Translations under genes and position numbers: made by a program
Shown: positions 17,876 to 47,639 of the stretch, piece after piece
Layout of the letters: each line of letters opens with the position of its first letter
How positions within the stretch are numbered: position 1 is the first letter of the stretch
Source of the DNA: Lachnospiraceae bacterium
GTDB lineage: Bacteria > Bacillota_A > Clostridia > Lachnospirales > Lachnospiraceae
NCBI GenBank assembly: GCA_009911175.1
Contig: QXWX01000054.1
Coordinates: 1-50,137 of the forward strand
DNA length: 50,137 bases
Reading direction: 5' to 3'
The notes under the pieces: model-generated
Database searches by the model: none
What the model saw: the letters and a program-made list of their open reading frames with translations, nothing else
What the model was told of the DNA's origin: nothing

Positions 17876-17921
17876 AAAAAAGCACAAAACTGTCTACACA
17901 CAAACAGTTCTGTGCTTTTTT
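17876..17921. terminator. Bidirectional terminator between the ABC-F gene and leuA
   Basis: An 18-bp stem (17876-17893 with 17904-17921, one mismatch) starts with six A and ends with six T, and serves both converging genes. It lies 7 bp beyond the leuA stop. Confidence 0.92.
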
Positions 17922-17928
17922 ACAACTC

Positions 17929-19917
17929 CTAATTCTGATTCCGGAACTGCACCGGTGTCAGGCCGTACATTTTCTTAAAGATCCGATTAAAATGCTCTAC
18001 ATTCTGATAGCCTACGGATTCCGCGATGCTTTCCACTGTCGCATTGCCGCTTTTCAACATTGCCCGGGCTTTTTTCATCCGCACCTTTTTCAGAATATCC
18101 CCGAAGGTCTCCCCGGATTTTTCTTTGATATACTTGGAAAGATAGGGCTTGGAAAGATAAAATTCTTCCGCAAGGTCATCCAGCGTCACGGTCTTATAAT
18201 TTGCGTAAATATAATTGGTGATCTGCAGGAGCCGCTCATCCTTACTCTCCTCCCTGCTTTTGATCTCCTCAATCTTATTTACCGCAACCTCCAGAGCCGC
18301 GATGGACGCTTTGATGATATCCGGGTCGATCCCGACGCCCCAATATTTTTTCCCGTTGCAGATGATCCCCACATAAGCTACCGCCTTGGAGGAAGACCCC
18401 TTTGTCATGGAATGCTCTTCATAGACCGACAGCTCGTAGCTGATATCAAAATAATGCTTGATCGCGTTGCTGACCGCATCCAGGCGTCCGTTTCCCACTC
18501 CGGTAATGACTTGCTGTTTCCCGCCGTGCAGAATGGTCGCGGAAGCCACAATACCGTCCTCCTGCTTGAAATGGCACTCCTCCAGGGTAAACACATTCTT
18601 CGCGTTGATATAGTGGTCCTCGAATATCTGGTAGATCCATTCCGGGGACAGCTCCTTATGCGCTTTGTCGGAGACATCCTTCACCAGATACCCCACTTCC
18701 TCCCGCATCTTCTGCGGCAGGCTGATGCCGAAGTTCTGTTTTAATATGTAATTTACGCCGCCCTTTCCGGACTGGCTGTTGATCCGGATCACGTCTGAAT
18801 CGTATCTTCTGCCCACATCCTTCGGATCAATGGGAAGATAGGGGACGCACCACTGCTCCGTGTTTCCGTCCTCCCTCCATGCCATTCCCTTTGCAATGGC
18901 ATCCTGGTGCGATCCGGAAAATGCAGTGAATACAAGTTCTCCCGCATAAGGCTGACGGGGAGAAACATGCATTCTTGTGAGCCGTTCATAGACCTCGCTG
19001 ATCTCGCTCATGTTGGAGAAATCCAGTCCCGGGTCTACTCCGTGGGAAAACATATTCATTGCCAGCGTGATGATATCCACGTTCCCGGTCCGCTCTCCGT
19101 TTCCAAAAAGAGTTCCCTCGATCCGGTCTGCCCCTGCCAGGATCCCAAGCTCCGCCGTAGCCACGCCGGTTCCCCGGTCATTGTGGGGGTGAAGGCTGAT
19201 GATCGTATTTTCCCGGTATTTCATATACTTGTTGAAATATTCCACCTGGCTCGCAAATACATGGGGAAGGGCATTTTCCACGGTTGCCGGAAGGTTGATG
19301 ATGGCCTTGTTCTCCGGGGTGGGCTGCCATACGTCCAGTACCGCGTTGCACACCTCCATGGCGTACTCCATCTCCGTACCGGAAAAGCTCTCCGGACTGT
19401 ATTCAAAGGTAAAGTTTCCTTCCGTCTCCTCCGCCAGCTCCTTCAAAAGCTTCGCGCCGTCGATGGCGATCTGCTTCACCTGCTCCTGATCCTTCCGGAA
19501 AACCTGCTCCCGCTGCGCTACGGAAGTAGAATTGTATACATGTATCACTGCATGCGGAGCACCCTTGACCGCCTCAAAGGTCCGCTTGATGATATGCTCC
19601 CTGGCCTGGGTCAGCACCTGGACTGTCACATCCTCCGGGATCATATCGCGCTCAATCAGTGTACGCATAAACTGGTACTCTGTCTCCGAGGCCGCCGGAA
19701 ATCCGACTTCGATCTCTTTGAATCCCACATCCACAAGCATCTGGAAAAACTCCACCTTTTCGTCCAGGCTCATGGGCTCAATCAATGCCTGGTTGCCGTC
19801 CCGCAGATCCACGCTGCACCAGGTCGGCGGGTGGTTGATATAGTCCTTTTTCACCCAGTCATAACAGTCTACCGGCGGCATAAAATAAGTCCGTGCGTAC
19901 TTTTCATAATTCTTCAT
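17929..19917 (-). CDS. leuA: 2-isopropylmalate synthase fused to a C-terminal AraC-type DNA-binding domain
   Basis: Residues 1-550 form a LeuA of the longer type: the aldolase-like catalytic domain has LRDGNQAL (38-45), VGFPAAS and the metal-binding HPHND (243-247). The regulatory/dimer domain runs at about 437-550 (ITGVGNGRLDAVSNAIKHYF), the usual leucine-sensing part. After a short charged linker (550-560) come about 100 residues of an AraC/XylS domain: first HTH LDDLAEEFYLSKPYLSKYI, second HTH VESIAESVGYQNVEHFNRIF, and the closing YGLTPVQFR. The frame is uninterrupted from 19917 to 17929, with AAGGAGA before the ATG. The enzyme makes 2-isopropylmalate from 2-oxoisovalerate and acetyl-CoA. 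A DNA-binding tail is unusual and suggests a leucine-responsive enzyme-regulator; that is inference. No other leu gene is adjacent. Confidence 0.93.
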   Translation of the reverse strand: MKNYEKYARTYFMPPVDCYDWVKKDYINHPPTWCSVDLRDGNQALIEPMSLDEKVEFFQMLVDVGFKEIEVGFPAASETEYQFMRTLIERDMIPEDVTVQVLTQAREHIIKRTFEAVKGAPHAVIHVYNSTSVAQREQVFRKDQEQVKQIAIDGAKLLKELAEETEGNFTFEYSPESFSGTEMEYAMEVCNAVLDVWQPTPENKAIINLPATVENALPHVFASQVEYFNKYMKYRENTIISLHPHNDRGTGVATAELGILAGADRIEGTLFGNGERTGNVDIITLAMNMFSHGVDPGLDFSNMSEISEVYERLTRMHVSPRQPYAGELVFTAFSGSHQDAIAKGMAWREDGNTEQWCVPYLPIDPKDVGRRYDSDVIRINSQSGKGGVNYILKQNFGISLPQKMREEVGYLVKDVSDKAHKELSPEWIYQIFEDHYINAKNVFTLEECHFKQEDGIVASATILHGGKQQVITGVGNGRLDAVSNAIKHYFDISYELSVYEEHSMTKGSSSKAVAYVGIICNGKKYWGVGIDPDIIKASIAALEVAVNKIEEIKSREESKDERLLQITNYIYANYKTVTLDDLAEEFYLSKPYLSKYIKEKSGETFGDILKKVRMKKARAMLKSGNATVESIAESVGYQNVEHFNRIFKKMYGLTPVQFRNQN

Positions 19918-19932
19918 GGTAACATCTCCTTA

Positions 19933-20036
19933 TATTTTATCAATCATTTTGTCTTATTTTATCTTCGCTTATACTATCACATCCAGGGTATATAATCCAG
20001 TGACATTTTTAATCATTTTTATTGATGTATTTTATC
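19933..20036. promoter_or_regulatory. Three copies of TATTTTATC upstream of leuA
   Basis: Exact copies are at 19933-19941, 19955-19963 and 20028-20036; the first two starts are 22 bp apart, two helical turns. AATCATTTT precedes the second copy by 4 nt and the third by 8 nt. Spaced direct repeats are typical AraC-family sites, so these could be operators for the leuA fusion protein. The region is AT-rich, so chance is a real alternative. Confidence 0.35.
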
Positions 20037-44448: not shown

Positions 44449-46899
44449 TCACAGCAAACTCTTCTGTGCATAGTAAACGGACTGCATGGCGTCCTTCCCA
44501 TAAAAATCCGCCCCGATCATATCGGCATATTCCTGATTCAGCACCGCTCCTCCGACCATGACCCTGCACTCCGGCGCTTCCATTTTCAGAAGCCGGATGG
44601 TCTCCTCCATGCTGACCACAGTGGTCGTCATCAGCGCGCTTAAGCCCACCAGCCGGATGTCCTGCGCCCGGACTGCTTCCAGGATCTGTTCCGGCGGCAC
44701 GTCTTTGCCCAGATCGATCACCTCAAAGCCGTAGTTTTCCAACAGAACCTTTACGATGTTTTTTCCGATATCATGGATATCTCCCTTCACCGTTGCCAGA
44801 ACCACCTTTTCCTTCTTTTCCGCCGCTTCCCCGCTCTCCGCAATCCGCTCCTTCAATACGGAAAATGCCGCCTTCGCCGCCTCCGCGCTCATCAAAAGCT
44901 GGGGAAGGAATACGGTTCCCTGTTCAAAGCCCTTTCCCACATGGTCCAGGGCCGGAATCAGATGGGTATTGATAATATCAAGCGGGGCCTGATCCCGGAC
45001 CAGCGTTTCCGTAATATGGTATGCCTCTTCCTTCAGCCCTTTTTCGATCACCGTCTGGAGGCTCATGTCACCGCCGAGCATATCTGCTCCGCCGCCTGCC
45101 GCAAGGCCCGCCGAAGCCCTGCCCCCGGATTCAAGTGCCGCCATGCTCCCGCCCGGAGCCGACGTCCCCCGAACTTTGCGTCCCGCATATTTTTCCACAT
45201 AACGGCTGCAGTTCTCGTCAAAGCCCATCAGGGCATGGTATGCGTCATAGGCCTCCATCATGGACTCGGAAGAGGGATTCACGATCCCGGCGCTGAGCCC
45301 GGCGTACATGGCCATCATATAGAAGCTGGCATTCAGGATCGGACGGCAGGGAAGCCCGAAGGAAATGTTGGACACCCCCAGTACCGTATGCACCCCCAGC
45401 TCCTGGCGCACCCGCCCGATGGCCTCCAGTGCCGCGGCAGCCCCTTCCGGTTCCGAGCTGATGGTCATGGCCAGCACATCAATGACGATATCCTTCTTTT
45501 CAATCCCGTACTTCGCAGCTTCCCGGATGATCCGCTCTGCCACCCGTACCCGGCCGTCAGCCGTACCCGGAATGCCCTTTTCATCCAGTGTCAGTCCGAT
45601 CACCACACCGCCGTATTTTGCAATGAGAGGAAACACCGCATCCATGGATTCCTGCTTGCCGCTGACCGAATTGACCATGGGCTTTCCGTTGTAGATCCGA
45701 AGCGCCGCTTCCATGGCACGCACATCCACCGTATCGATCTGCAGGGGAAGGCTGGTAACGCTCTGCAGCCCTTCCACTGCCTCTACCATCATGGCCGTCT
45801 CATCGATATCCGGCAGCCCCACATTCACATCCAGGATATGTGCTCCGTTTTCCTCCTGCAAGATGCCTTCCTTCAAAATATAATCCAGGTCATGGTCCTT
45901 CAAAGCCTGCTTGAACTTCTTCTTTCCGGTGGGATTGATCCGTTCCCCTATGATCTTAGATCCCCTTCCCAGGACCACTGCCTGCCCGTAAGAAGAGACC
46001 ACGGTAAACGTTTTTTTCTCCGTCGGTTTAACGGACATTCCCCGGCAGGCTTCGATCATGCTGCCAAGATGTTCCGGCGTAGTCCCGCAGCAGCCTCCCA
46101 CGACAGCCGCCCCTTTTTCCACAATGTCCTTCATGGTCCGCGCAAATTCCTCGGGACTCACATCGTAATATGTCTCATTGCCCCGCTGCTTCGGCAGTCC
46201 GGCATTGGGCTTCACAATCACAGGAATGGACGCGCAGAGCAGCAGCTCTTCCAGAACCGGCATCACCTGAACCGGCCCCAGTCCGCAGTTCACCCCAAGA
46301 GCATCCACCCGCAGGCCTTCCAGCAGGCTGACAACGGCAGGAACATCCGCACCGGTGAGCAGTTTTTTCCGCTCATCAAAAATGGCGGTCACAAACACGG
46401 GCAGCTTCGTATTCTCCTTTGCCGCCAGCACCGCCGCCTTGATCTCATAAGTATCGCTCATCGTCTCGATGTGGATCAGATCCGCGCCCGCCTGTTCCCC
46501 GTAGACCATGGCCTGCTTAAAGGCTTCATATGCGGCCTCAAATTCCAGATCCCCCATGGGCTTTAGCAGCTTCCCGGTGGGGCCTACATCCAGTGCCGTA
46601 TAGACGCCGCGCCCGGCCCGGCGGGCCGCTTCCTTCACGTGGCTGACCGCCTGTTCTATGATCTCCTGCAGCGGATAGCCTCCATCCCGGAATTTCAGGG
46701 CATTGGCGCCAAATGTATTGGTCAGGACAAGGTCGCTTCCGGCCTCAATATAGGCCTGATGGATGCCGATGATCTCCTCCCCGTGTGTTACATTCCATGT
46801 CTCCGGCAGTTCTCCCGGCTTCAATCCCTTTGCCTGGAGCAGCGTGCCCATCCCGCCGTCGAAAAACAGCAGTTTCTTTCCCAAATCATTTTTAATCAT
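44449..46899 (-). CDS. metH: Cobalamin-dependent methionine synthase lacking the activation domain
   Basis: Transfers the methyl of 5-methyltetrahydrofolate to homocysteine via B12. The homocysteine domain (1-310) has zinc cysteines in VNCGLG and GGCCGTTPEH. The pterin domain (about 320-590) has GERINPTGKKKFKQAL and NVGLPDIDE. After a Gly/Ala-rich linker (SGGRASAGLAAGGGADMLGG) come the B12 cap and the B12 domain with DIHDIGKN. At 816 residues it lacks the ~330-residue C-terminal reactivation domain of E. coli MetH; that function is probably supplied by the gene at 46896-47546, whose stop overlaps this start as ATGA. AAGGGA lies 8 nt before the ATG. Confidence 0.96.
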   Translation of the reverse strand: MIKNDLGKKLLFFDGGMGTLLQAKGLKPGELPETWNVTHGEEIIGIHQAYIEAGSDLVLTNTFGANALKFRDGGYPLQEIIEQAVSHVKEAARRAGRGVYTALDVGPTGKLLKPMGDLEFEAAYEAFKQAMVYGEQAGADLIHIETMSDTYEIKAAVLAAKENTKLPVFVTAIFDERKKLLTGADVPAVVSLLEGLRVDALGVNCGLGPVQVMPVLEELLLCASIPVIVKPNAGLPKQRGNETYYDVSPEEFARTMKDIVEKGAAVVGGCCGTTPEHLGSMIEACRGMSVKPTEKKTFTVVSSYGQAVVLGRGSKIIGERINPTGKKKFKQALKDHDLDYILKEGILQEENGAHILDVNVGLPDIDETAMMVEAVEGLQSVTSLPLQIDTVDVRAMEAALRIYNGKPMVNSVSGKQESMDAVFPLIAKYGGVVIGLTLDEKGIPGTADGRVRVAERIIREAAKYGIEKKDIVIDVLAMTISSEPEGAAAALEAIGRVRQELGVHTVLGVSNISFGLPCRPILNASFYMMAMYAGLSAGIVNPSSESMMEAYDAYHALMGFDENCSRYVEKYAGRKVRGTSAPGGSMAALESGGRASAGLAAGGGADMLGGDMSLQTVIEKGLKEEAYHITETLVRDQAPLDIINTHLIPALDHVGKGFEQGTVFLPQLLMSAEAAKAAFSVLKERIAESGEAAEKKEKVVLATVKGDIHDIGKNIVKVLLENYGFEVIDLGKDVPPEQILEAVRAQDIRLVGLSALMTTTVVSMEETIRLLKMEAPECRVMVGGAVLNQEYADMIGADFYGKDAMQSVYYAQKSLL

Positions 46900-47546
46900 A
46901 AGGTATCCCTTCTATAAATACAGTCTATTTTTTCACAGGATTCACAGCCCTGTCTGTGGCATCTGATCACAGTCCGGCCCGCCCCGATGACAGCCGTCAC
47001 CGATTTGGACGGAGCCATCATGCAGCCCTCCGTCAAGGTCAGCCCAATGCTTCTGGCACAATCCAGCACCCGGATCAGATCCCTCTGGCACTCTATGGGA
47101 AAATCCCCGTATCCCGGGCTGAAACGCGGCCGCAGATACCGGCCCTCCAACTCCATCTCCTGCCGGATCCGTTCCTGACATTCATCACAGTACTTCTCCA
47201 AAAGTGCCGCGGCACATGCCTGCGTCACTACGGTTTTTGCCATATCCGTTTTGGATGTCCGGGACAAAAGCTGATCCACCCCGATTCCCAGGGTGGCCCC
47301 GAACAACACGATCTTATCACAGCCCCGGAGGTTTTTCCCCAGGCTTTTGCTCTTTACGGTCAGGCTCCCGAACCGGACGGTCTCCCCGTCCTCCTGCTCT
47401 AAATCAAAGATGCGGTAGACCGACTTTCTGCTGCCGACCGAACGCAGGCTCCCGAAGGAATCCGCGATCAGTCTCAGTGTCTGATCATCTACCGCATGCT
47501 TTCCATATCCCAGGTATCGGACAGCCTCTCTCATCAAATGATCCAT
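46896..47546 (-). CDS. Stand-alone methionine synthase activation-domain protein
   Basis: Resembles the SAM-binding reactivation domain of MetH as a separate protein of 216 residues. RPRFSPGYGDFPIECQRDL is the characteristic SAM-site region, followed by TLTEGCMMAPSKSVTAVIG as in MetH activation domains. The C-terminus carries CHRQGCESCEKIDC, a cysteine cluster not needed for SAM binding. ATG 47546 is chosen (GGGAG 10 nt upstream); the frame extends to 47633 through a hairpin. It is translationally coupled to metH and presumably reactivates oxidised cob(II)alamin by reductive methylation. Confidence 0.88.
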   Translation of the reverse strand: MDHLMREAVRYLGYGKHAVDDQTLRLIADSFGSLRSVGSRKSVYRIFDLEQEDGETVRFGSLTVKSKSLGKNLRGCDKIVLFGATLGIGVDQLLSRTSKTDMAKTVVTQACAAALLEKYCDECQERIRQEMELEGRYLRPRFSPGYGDFPIECQRDLIRVLDCARSIGLTLTEGCMMAPSKSVTAVIGAGRTVIRCHRQGCESCEKIDCIYRRDTL

Positions 47547-47574
47547 GCTCCGCACACTCCCAATACACGTACAG

Positions 47575-47600
47575 AAAGACTGCCTGCGACAGTCTTTTTT
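47575..47600 (+). terminator. Terminator-like hairpin between metF and the activation gene
   Basis: The stem is 47575-47582 with 47590-47597 (AAAGACTG/CAGTCTTT), followed on the plus strand by more T. Both neighbours are on the minus strand, where the T run is short (TTT), so it may be a weak attenuator in that direction or stop antisense transcripts. Confidence 0.5.
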
Positions 47601-47639
47601 GTATCGTGGTTTTTCTGCGTCTCCTGACAGCATCCGGTC

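Follow-up and report, generated by a model that had tools for sequence, protein, structure and literature searches.

The 50,137-nucleotide (nt) contig QXWX01000054.1 of a Lachnospiraceae bacterium (assembly GCA_009911175.1), called the window below and taken at its full length, carries a gene in which 2-isopropylmalate synthase (LeuA) is fused to an AraC-type DNA-binding domain with two helix-turn-helix (HTH) motifs. Comparison with its relatives suggests that the product, LeuA-HTH, is both a working enzyme and a transcription factor dedicated to its own gene, probably a leucine-gated activator; a probability of roughly 60% can be put on this explanation as a whole, the enzyme's function included. 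The original prediction had proposed a bifunctional enzyme and transcription factor that would report leucine directly to DNA. Conserved enzyme, sensor and DNA-binding domains in one chain, together with a DNA site linked to the HTH, bear out much of that proposal, and the evidence favours a dedicated autoregulator over a general leucine reporter. The gene and its domains lie as follows:

17929..19917, minus strand: leuA-HTH gene, 662 amino acids (aa), 2-isopropylmalate synthase plus AraC-type DNA-binding domain (open reading frame, Pfam, NCBIfam)
18994..19824, minus strand: HMGL-like catalytic TIM barrel, residues 32-308 (Pfam, 243.6 bits)
18739..18939, minus strand: IPMS_D2 post-catalytic domain, residues 327-393 (Pfam, 114.7 bits)
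18271..18654, minus strand: LeuA_dimer leucine-binding allosteric domain, residues 422-549 (Pfam, 90.9 bits)
18235..18270, minus strand: linker, residues 550-561, variable in sequence and constant in length
17935..18234, minus strand: AraC-type two-HTH DNA-binding domain, residues 562-661 (Pfam, structure, selection)

The reading frame runs from an ATG at 19917 to a stop codon at 17931-17929 with zero internal stops, exactly the coordinates and the single uninterrupted frame first proposed, to which only the strand has to be added. All five Pfam domains exceed their curated cut-offs, HTH_18 at residues 582-661 with 74.9 bits (cut-off 33.6) and HTH_AraC at residues 621-660 with 46.5 bits (cut-off 26.6), and the NCBIfam model NF002991 (2-isopropylmalate synthase) covers residues 4-548 with 808.9 bits. 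These matches agree with the earlier description of a complete LeuA, leucine-sensing domain included, followed by a two-HTH AraC domain. The HMGL-like barrel with its metal and substrate motifs, IPMS_D2 and LeuA_dimer are all present, placing the enzyme part in the LeuA family, and the VDLRDGNQ, HPHNDRG and GNGERTGN motifs are invariant in 82 of 82 non-redundant fused proteins. The protein is probably a working 2-isopropylmalate synthase.

Could the fusion be an artefact, two genes joined by an error of assembly or sequencing? Two other genomes do carry LeuA and the HTH in different frames. However, the architecture is far too common for this: both parts occur in 120 of 120 among the matches listed (of 5922) in the database search that had been proposed for LeuA plus HTH_18, and a query with residues 480-662 finds HTH_18 and LeuA_dimer in all of them, with the HMGL-like catalytic domain in 119 as well (the exception, P0032, is 369 aa long). 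Database names of the matches listed say merely 2-isopropylmalate synthase. Around the window's nearest relative the fusion is present in 22 of 98 genomes, a count that includes G004, whose gene runs off the contig at residue 639, and excludes G012, which has an HTH match only. On named contigs, 79 of the best 80 of 301 relatives match through residue 660 or beyond and the remaining one (L033) is cut at 639; these 80 include complete genomes and come from Mediterraneibacter, Schaedlerella, Faecalicatena, Claveliimonas, Merdimonas, Sporofaciens, Dorea, [Ruminococcus] torques and others. Linker length is nearly constant, at 12 residues in 81 of 82 non-redundant fused proteins. Relatives with the same architecture therefore dispose of a sequencing error, which the original prediction had named as a possible refutation, and the chance of an artefactual join is negligible. 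The fusion of LeuA to an AraC-type HTH is real.

Across Lachnospiraceae, judged from genome names, a match reaching the end of the HTH is found in 89 of 397 sampled genomes, among the matches listed and with the truncated G213 left out of the fused count. In an order-level sample of 295 genomes, 12 from other families match at E <= 1e-215 and none of these extends past residue 560. No description of a LeuA-AraC fusion was found in the open-licence PubMed Central literature, a coverage outside which subscription papers mostly fall. Three genomes (G021, G026, G034) have two LeuA proteins, one fused and one unfused, that are about 50% identical.

The HTH is maintained like the enzyme to which it is attached. 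Averaged by column over the 82 proteins (a set without L003 and L033, whose contigs end within the HTH), conservation is 0.855 in the HTH against 0.886 in the catalytic domain, 0.828 in LeuA_dimer and 0.567 in the linker. The median ratio of nonsynonymous to synonymous substitution rates (dN/dS) is 0.014 for the HTH and 0.020 for LeuA in the 25 usable of 27 pairs, values to be read with a dS near saturation, since its median is about 1.04; the HTH dN over the LeuA dS is 0.022. Purifying selection on the HTH is about as strong as on the enzyme. A predicted structure of residues 545-662 has seven helices and a mean predicted local distance difference test score (pLDDT) of 89, and it resembles the DNA-binding domains of the AraC family: the C-terminal domains of AraT and YesN, GadX, SoxS, AraC and MarA. 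With HTH_18 and HTH_AraC above cut-off and the two-HTH fold in place, the domain is an intact one of the AraC/XylS type. The full-length model matches the LeuA of Mycobacterium tuberculosis (Mtb) in its enzyme part; its overall confidence (mean pLDDT 78, predicted template modelling score 0.60) is too low to read from it how enzyme and HTH are placed relative to each other.

Does the fused protein keep a leucine sensor? For Mtb LeuA, the Figure 5 legend of PMC2704214 names L535, A536, V551, Y554, A565 and A567 as leucine-site residues, and the same source names residues at which a change ends feedback inhibition, Y410F being leucine-insensitive. Correspondence with the window was counted by hand on a structure-database alignment, and invariance was taken across the 82 fused proteins. 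The equivalent of Y410 is Y360, identical in 82 of 82, as are G475 and G477 (Mtb G531 and G533); L535, Y554 and A567 correspond to L479, Y499 and A512, kept in 82 of 82. Part of the pocket speaks against an unaltered site: A536 and A565 have become D480 and S510, changed in 82 of 82, and V551, still a valine in the window (V498), is F in 49 of 82. Judged against the residues named in that source, leucine sensing by LeuA-HTH is likely.

A conserved block upstream of the gene, common to 45 fused loci and the window, offers a candidate site for the DNA-binding domain:

19999..20035, minus strand: site 1, predicted operator, TAAAATAnATCAAnnnAAnTGATTAAAwTyryCACT (conservation, fixed spacing, position weight matrix (PWM) score of 46.9 bits)
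19971..19979, minus strand: predicted extended -10 element (TGA TAGTAT), at a fixed distance from site 1
19935..19953, minus strand: site 2, a weaker repeat of the motif, 73 bp beyond site 1 and past the predicted start

Site 1 spans about 37 bp, from about -71 to -35 of the predicted start (near position 19964) as counted from the -10, and is the top-scoring place for its PWM in the whole window. An alignment of 41 non-redundant promoters (44 blocks; L038 and L105 left out for an anchor mismatch) has as its consensus site 1, then about 17 bp of poorly conserved spacer, then TrTGnTAGkAT. Within the -10, the letters T45, T47, G48, T50, A51, A54 and T55, numbered from ATCAA, are identical and gap-free in 41 of 41. 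The ATCAA core stands at one fixed distance from the extended -10 in 41 of 41, and its distance to the ATG varies from 108 to 202 bp. In one relative (L016, genome G059) a tandem pair of site-1 motifs is visible by eye upstream of leuA.

Site 1 goes with the HTH. Scored with a PWM built from 67 non-redundant sites, 102 of 102 fused loci whose upstream region is long enough reach at least 8.6, a count of loci and not of genomes, many loci stemming from the same genomes, that includes the training set and duplicate genomes (28 printed rows, all on the coding strand; L100, with 47 bp upstream, left out). None of 47 unfused leuA loci scores above 1.9 (L156 with only 241 bp available). Among 65 upstream regions outside the earlier set (73 extra minus 8 already in it), 53 score above 5 on the coding strand, including L263 and L278, where the site is oddly close to the ATG (36 and 64 bp). 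A further 27 seemingly unfused loci contain 25 with scores of -1.8 or below; the other two, L284 (25.7) and L288 (5.4, borderline), each carry the HTH intact but in a different frame, immediately behind the LeuA stop. Of the 82 loci treated as unfused, with 300-400 bp downstream covered for many, only three contain HTH-like sequence: these two and L317, whose fused gene is truncated by a contig end. Site 1 thus occurs in none of 72 leuA loci without an HTH (47 plus 25) and in both split-gene loci. A specific DNA site is associated with the HTH domain, as far as these sequences can tell.

Three loci display intermediate arrangements. In L284 (G111) the separate HTH frame, about 61% identical to the window's HTH, has a possible ATG of its own, and the operator is kept. 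In L288 (G128) an A8 run (TTTAAAAAAAACG) precedes the LeuA stop, beyond which the HTH is read in the -1 frame; this junction could reflect a mutation, an assembly error or programmed frameshifting that yields both forms. L289, an HTH-less gene nested in the fused group, has TTACCACT at the correct distance from TGTGCTAAGAT, counted by eye, and this block looks like a decayed operator.

The phylogeny of the enzyme adds independent comparisons. A first tree (82 rows, without L003) placed the fused genes in a single clade with a Shimodaira-Hasegawa-like approximate likelihood ratio of 100, a picture overturned by a denser tree of 63 loci, in which several HTH-less genes are nested inside; L144, whose contig ends inside the gene, was left out of the trees, and the 73 extra fused loci, represented by upstream stretches alone, are outside the denser tree. 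On the denser tree the HTH state changes 6 times, at least 5 of them forced by supported branches. Because HTH-less genes sit among fused ones, one or few gains followed by repeated losses is the better statement, and multiple gains may have occurred. Operator state equals HTH state in 62 of 62 rows compared (L305, with 219 bp upstream, left out), and the independent pairs, 4 on supported branches and 6 on the best tree, all agree. Several points count against so tidy an association. A sign test on 4 pairs gives p = 0.125 and is unable to reach 0.05, and the agreement of the pairs holds by construction, as operator states were entered by class. In addition, 12 of the 65 new fused loci score 5 or less or on the other strand, so that site 1 is degenerate or absent there, several copies being recognisable by eye.

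If the HTH binds site 1, which genes does it control? A scan of 113 genomes (50 plus 63) used the pattern AAAWWnATCAAn6TGATTAAA, allowing one mismatch at most. This pattern lies before leuA in 48 of 52 fused genomes (19 of 22 and 29 of 30) and 2 of 2 split ones, and in none of 59 others (0 of 28 and 0 of 31), a set in which the G014 gene is cut by a contig end and 8 of the 31 came without a check for a split-off HTH. The 33 exact matches (13 plus 20) without exception stand before a fused leuA. Matches away from leuA number 25 (11 plus 14), each with one mismatch, near the 16 (10 plus 6) of a reversed-pattern control, and one extra match (G358) is site 2 itself. The leuC gene was considered as a second target and rejected: 29 of 30 fetched leuC-type loci have PWM scores below 0, the other (L209, 10.6) matching inside an asparaginase-like coding sequence, and 20 leuC loci, 17 of them from fused genomes, have no T-box at gathering score. 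At the stringency searched, no target besides the gene's own promoter rises above background. A site found once per genome at the gene for a DNA-binding domain, and absent without that domain, is the footprint expected of a dedicated autoregulator.

Other uses of the domain have to be weighed against this. AraC-type domains often control several operons, and the searches demanded a near-consensus site, so the HTH might govern a wider gene set as a global leucine reporter, with the leuA site merely its best-conserved target. Off-leuA matches that are all inexact and near control level, and leuC-type loci that score below 0, speak against a wide regulon and make this account unlikely. Alternatively, a different transcription factor could occupy site 1 while the tail does something else; the site is known here from sequence alone, and some HTH-less relatives show another recurring block in the same place by eye. 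However, this would leave unexplained why the site is missing where the HTH is absent and retained where the HTH is split off, and no other gene carries the site above background. Nor is a conserved neighbour a candidate for such a regulator: the largest family is shared by just 15 of 74 upstream regions, and this maximum led to its rejection. Several neighbouring frames recur in close relatives, one family in 39 of 42 loci, a set that is not decisive by itself. A different factor is improbable. The third account, in which the tail has given up DNA binding for oligomerisation or control of the enzyme and site 1 is a strong promoter element, sits poorly with an HTH conserved at 0.855 against 0.886 for the catalytic domain under similar purifying selection, and these genomes do not use site 1 as a general promoter element; this account deserves very little weight.

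An autoregulator at site 1 could act in either direction. Site 1 ends where a -35 box would begin, and class II activators bind beside the -35 region. Among 44 fused promoters, the -35 box matches at best in 1-4 of 6 letters and the extended -10 TG is present in 44 of 44; among 54 held-out fused promoters, 43 have the TG and three reach 5 of 6 at -35. As proof of activation the missing -35 box is weakened by HTH-less relatives that lack it too, as judged from promoters anchored on the T-box. Three observations tell against giving it weight: in held-out fused promoters the -35 match averages a little above that of shuffled spacers (3.13 vs 2.77); HTH-less T-box promoters (n = 29) have TTGACA in 15, with at most 4 letters matched in 12; and L272, one of the 12 fused loci with a T-box, has a weak site and TTGACA. 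A poor -35 is not special to fused genes, so the sign of regulation rests mainly on position, which most likely favours a class II-type activator.

Site 2 supplies the case for the opposite sign. Its scan started from 103 fused loci, 9 of which lacked a matching site 1 within 300 bp; after removal of near-copies 71 remained. The best further motif match lies 72-77 bp on, on the same strand, in 66 of the 71 loci with a clear site 1, and exceeds the 95% null in 61. LeuA-HTH could then be a repressor with leucine as corepressor: leucine-bound protein would hold sites 1 and 2 in a loop of about 73 bp and shut the promoter, and would release the DNA without leucine, a scheme that the position of site 2 downstream of the predicted start would suit. 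However, most early-branching fused loci have no site 2 visible by eye and still keep site 1, an absence that also counts against the preferred activator account, and a poor -35 calls for assistance to the promoter, not hindrance. Repression is a minority possibility, to be kept in view beside activation.

The unfused relatives indicate what the predicted protein loop may stand in for. At the Rfam gathering score no T-box leader is found in the window or in 15 close fused loci (13 genomes). HTH-less relatives in the same LeuA clade have one in 7 of 8 (L023-L030), 4 of 5 (L141-L145, where a contig end truncates L144) and 18 of 20 further loci; L170 and L171, of another family, have no T-box, and of 24 clade B LeuA loci, at about 50% identity, L161 alone has one. 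T-box and site 1 stand together in 12 fused loci, L014 and L019 (of 12 fused loci) and ten of 20 sources mostly preselected by a T-box core regular expression. The T-box of these 12 begins 0-37 nt past the start that site 1 predicts, and in seven of them 0-11 nt past it, which independently supports the promoter assignment. A simple regular expression finds a leucine CTC codon after GAA in 11 of 21 T-box leaders. On the denser tree, pairs comparing T-box with HTH average 0.1 in the same direction, 0.4 in the other and 4.5 with no difference. T-box presence does not change with the HTH, so a simple swap of T-box for HTH is not claimed, and replacement is a tendency and not a rule. In many lineages, the predicted protein loop stands where relatives have a T-box RNA, and T-box-only, T-box-plus-operator, operator-only, split-gene and HTH-less nested forms are all present today.

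Some leaders hold further elements. An Rfam Clostridiales-1 RNA lies between the leuA T-box and the gene in L287 and L297. Four HTH-less loci (L285, L292, L293, L298) have a different block, roughly AAATTwGGGnyTT, upstream of the T-box at the place of site 1, seen by eye and perhaps the site of another factor. In L141 (G007) a 6S RNA lies beside an unfused T-box leuA; its genus is that of the window's nearest relative, whose members are mostly fused.

From the observed architecture, selection on the HTH, promoter geometry and operator-HTH association, we infer binding, gating, activation and bridging in the following form. The C-terminal AraC-type domain would bind site 1 upstream of the extended -10, and the bound protein would act as a class II-type activator in place of the missing -35 box. 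Leucine in the domain adjoining the linker would inhibit the enzyme and switch off, or alter, DNA binding, so that a single ligand and a single protein would control both the activity and the synthesis of the pathway's first enzyme. In derived lineages, the window's among them, site 2 about 73 bp downstream (roughly seven helical turns) may let one dimer bridge both sites. Whether the loop is closed in just this way, with the allosteric domain of an end-product-inhibited enzyme gating a fused AraC-type activator whose single genomic site is its own promoter, is about evenly balanced.

Each half of the protein has known counterparts. LeuA of the Mtb and yeast type (NF002991; PDB 1SR9 and the leucine-bound 3FIG) has the same enzyme and leucine-sensor domains and catalytic motifs and provides the nearest solved structures, but in a PDB search LeuA and AraC-domain entries were separate molecules, with no listed chain matching both. 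AraC/XylS regulators (AraC, MarA, SoxS, Rns, XylR and response regulators of the YesN type) share the two-HTH, seven-helix fold and a predicted site beside the -35 region; their sensors are cupin, periplasmic-binding or receiver domains, whereas in LeuA-HTH the sensor would be a whole biosynthetic enzyme. In the trigger enzymes PutA, BirA and NadR one chain catalyses a pathway step and controls its own gene according to the state of the pathway. LeuA-HTH likewise joins enzyme and DNA-binding architecture in one chain, with its own promoter as the probable target, and differs in enzyme, pathway and DNA-binding domain, in its predicted end-product allostery and in its apparently single target. 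The leucine T-box (RF00230) serves the same gene and the same purpose, matching leuA expression to leucine supply; there an RNA senses tRNA charging, in contrast to the protein site of LeuA-HTH, and some fused loci carry both.

Two further features flank the coding sequence, both seen directly:

19924..19931, minus strand: ribosome-binding site AAGGAGAT
17876..17920, minus strand: terminator-like inverted repeat just 3' of the stop codon

The gene is probably transcribed alone, given the terminator-like repeat that follows its stop codon. Its 5' neighbour is a D-Ala-D-Ala carboxypeptidase gene on the same strand and its 3' neighbour an ABC-F gene on the opposite strand. Elsewhere in the window, 44449-46899 encodes a methionine synthase without a matched activation domain, and 46896-47633 a separate protein with the PF02965 activation domain.

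Gene fusion thus appears to have connected the allosteric feedback domain of a classical enzyme of amino-acid biosynthesis to DNA, and LeuA-HTH is a possible modular leucine sensor with a defined operator. The several evolutionary stages still present make RNA- and protein-based control of one gene directly testable against each other. If the proposed mechanism is true, a single event of leucine binding would determine how active the enzyme is and how much of it is made, through a fusion that is widespread in gut Lachnospiraceae.

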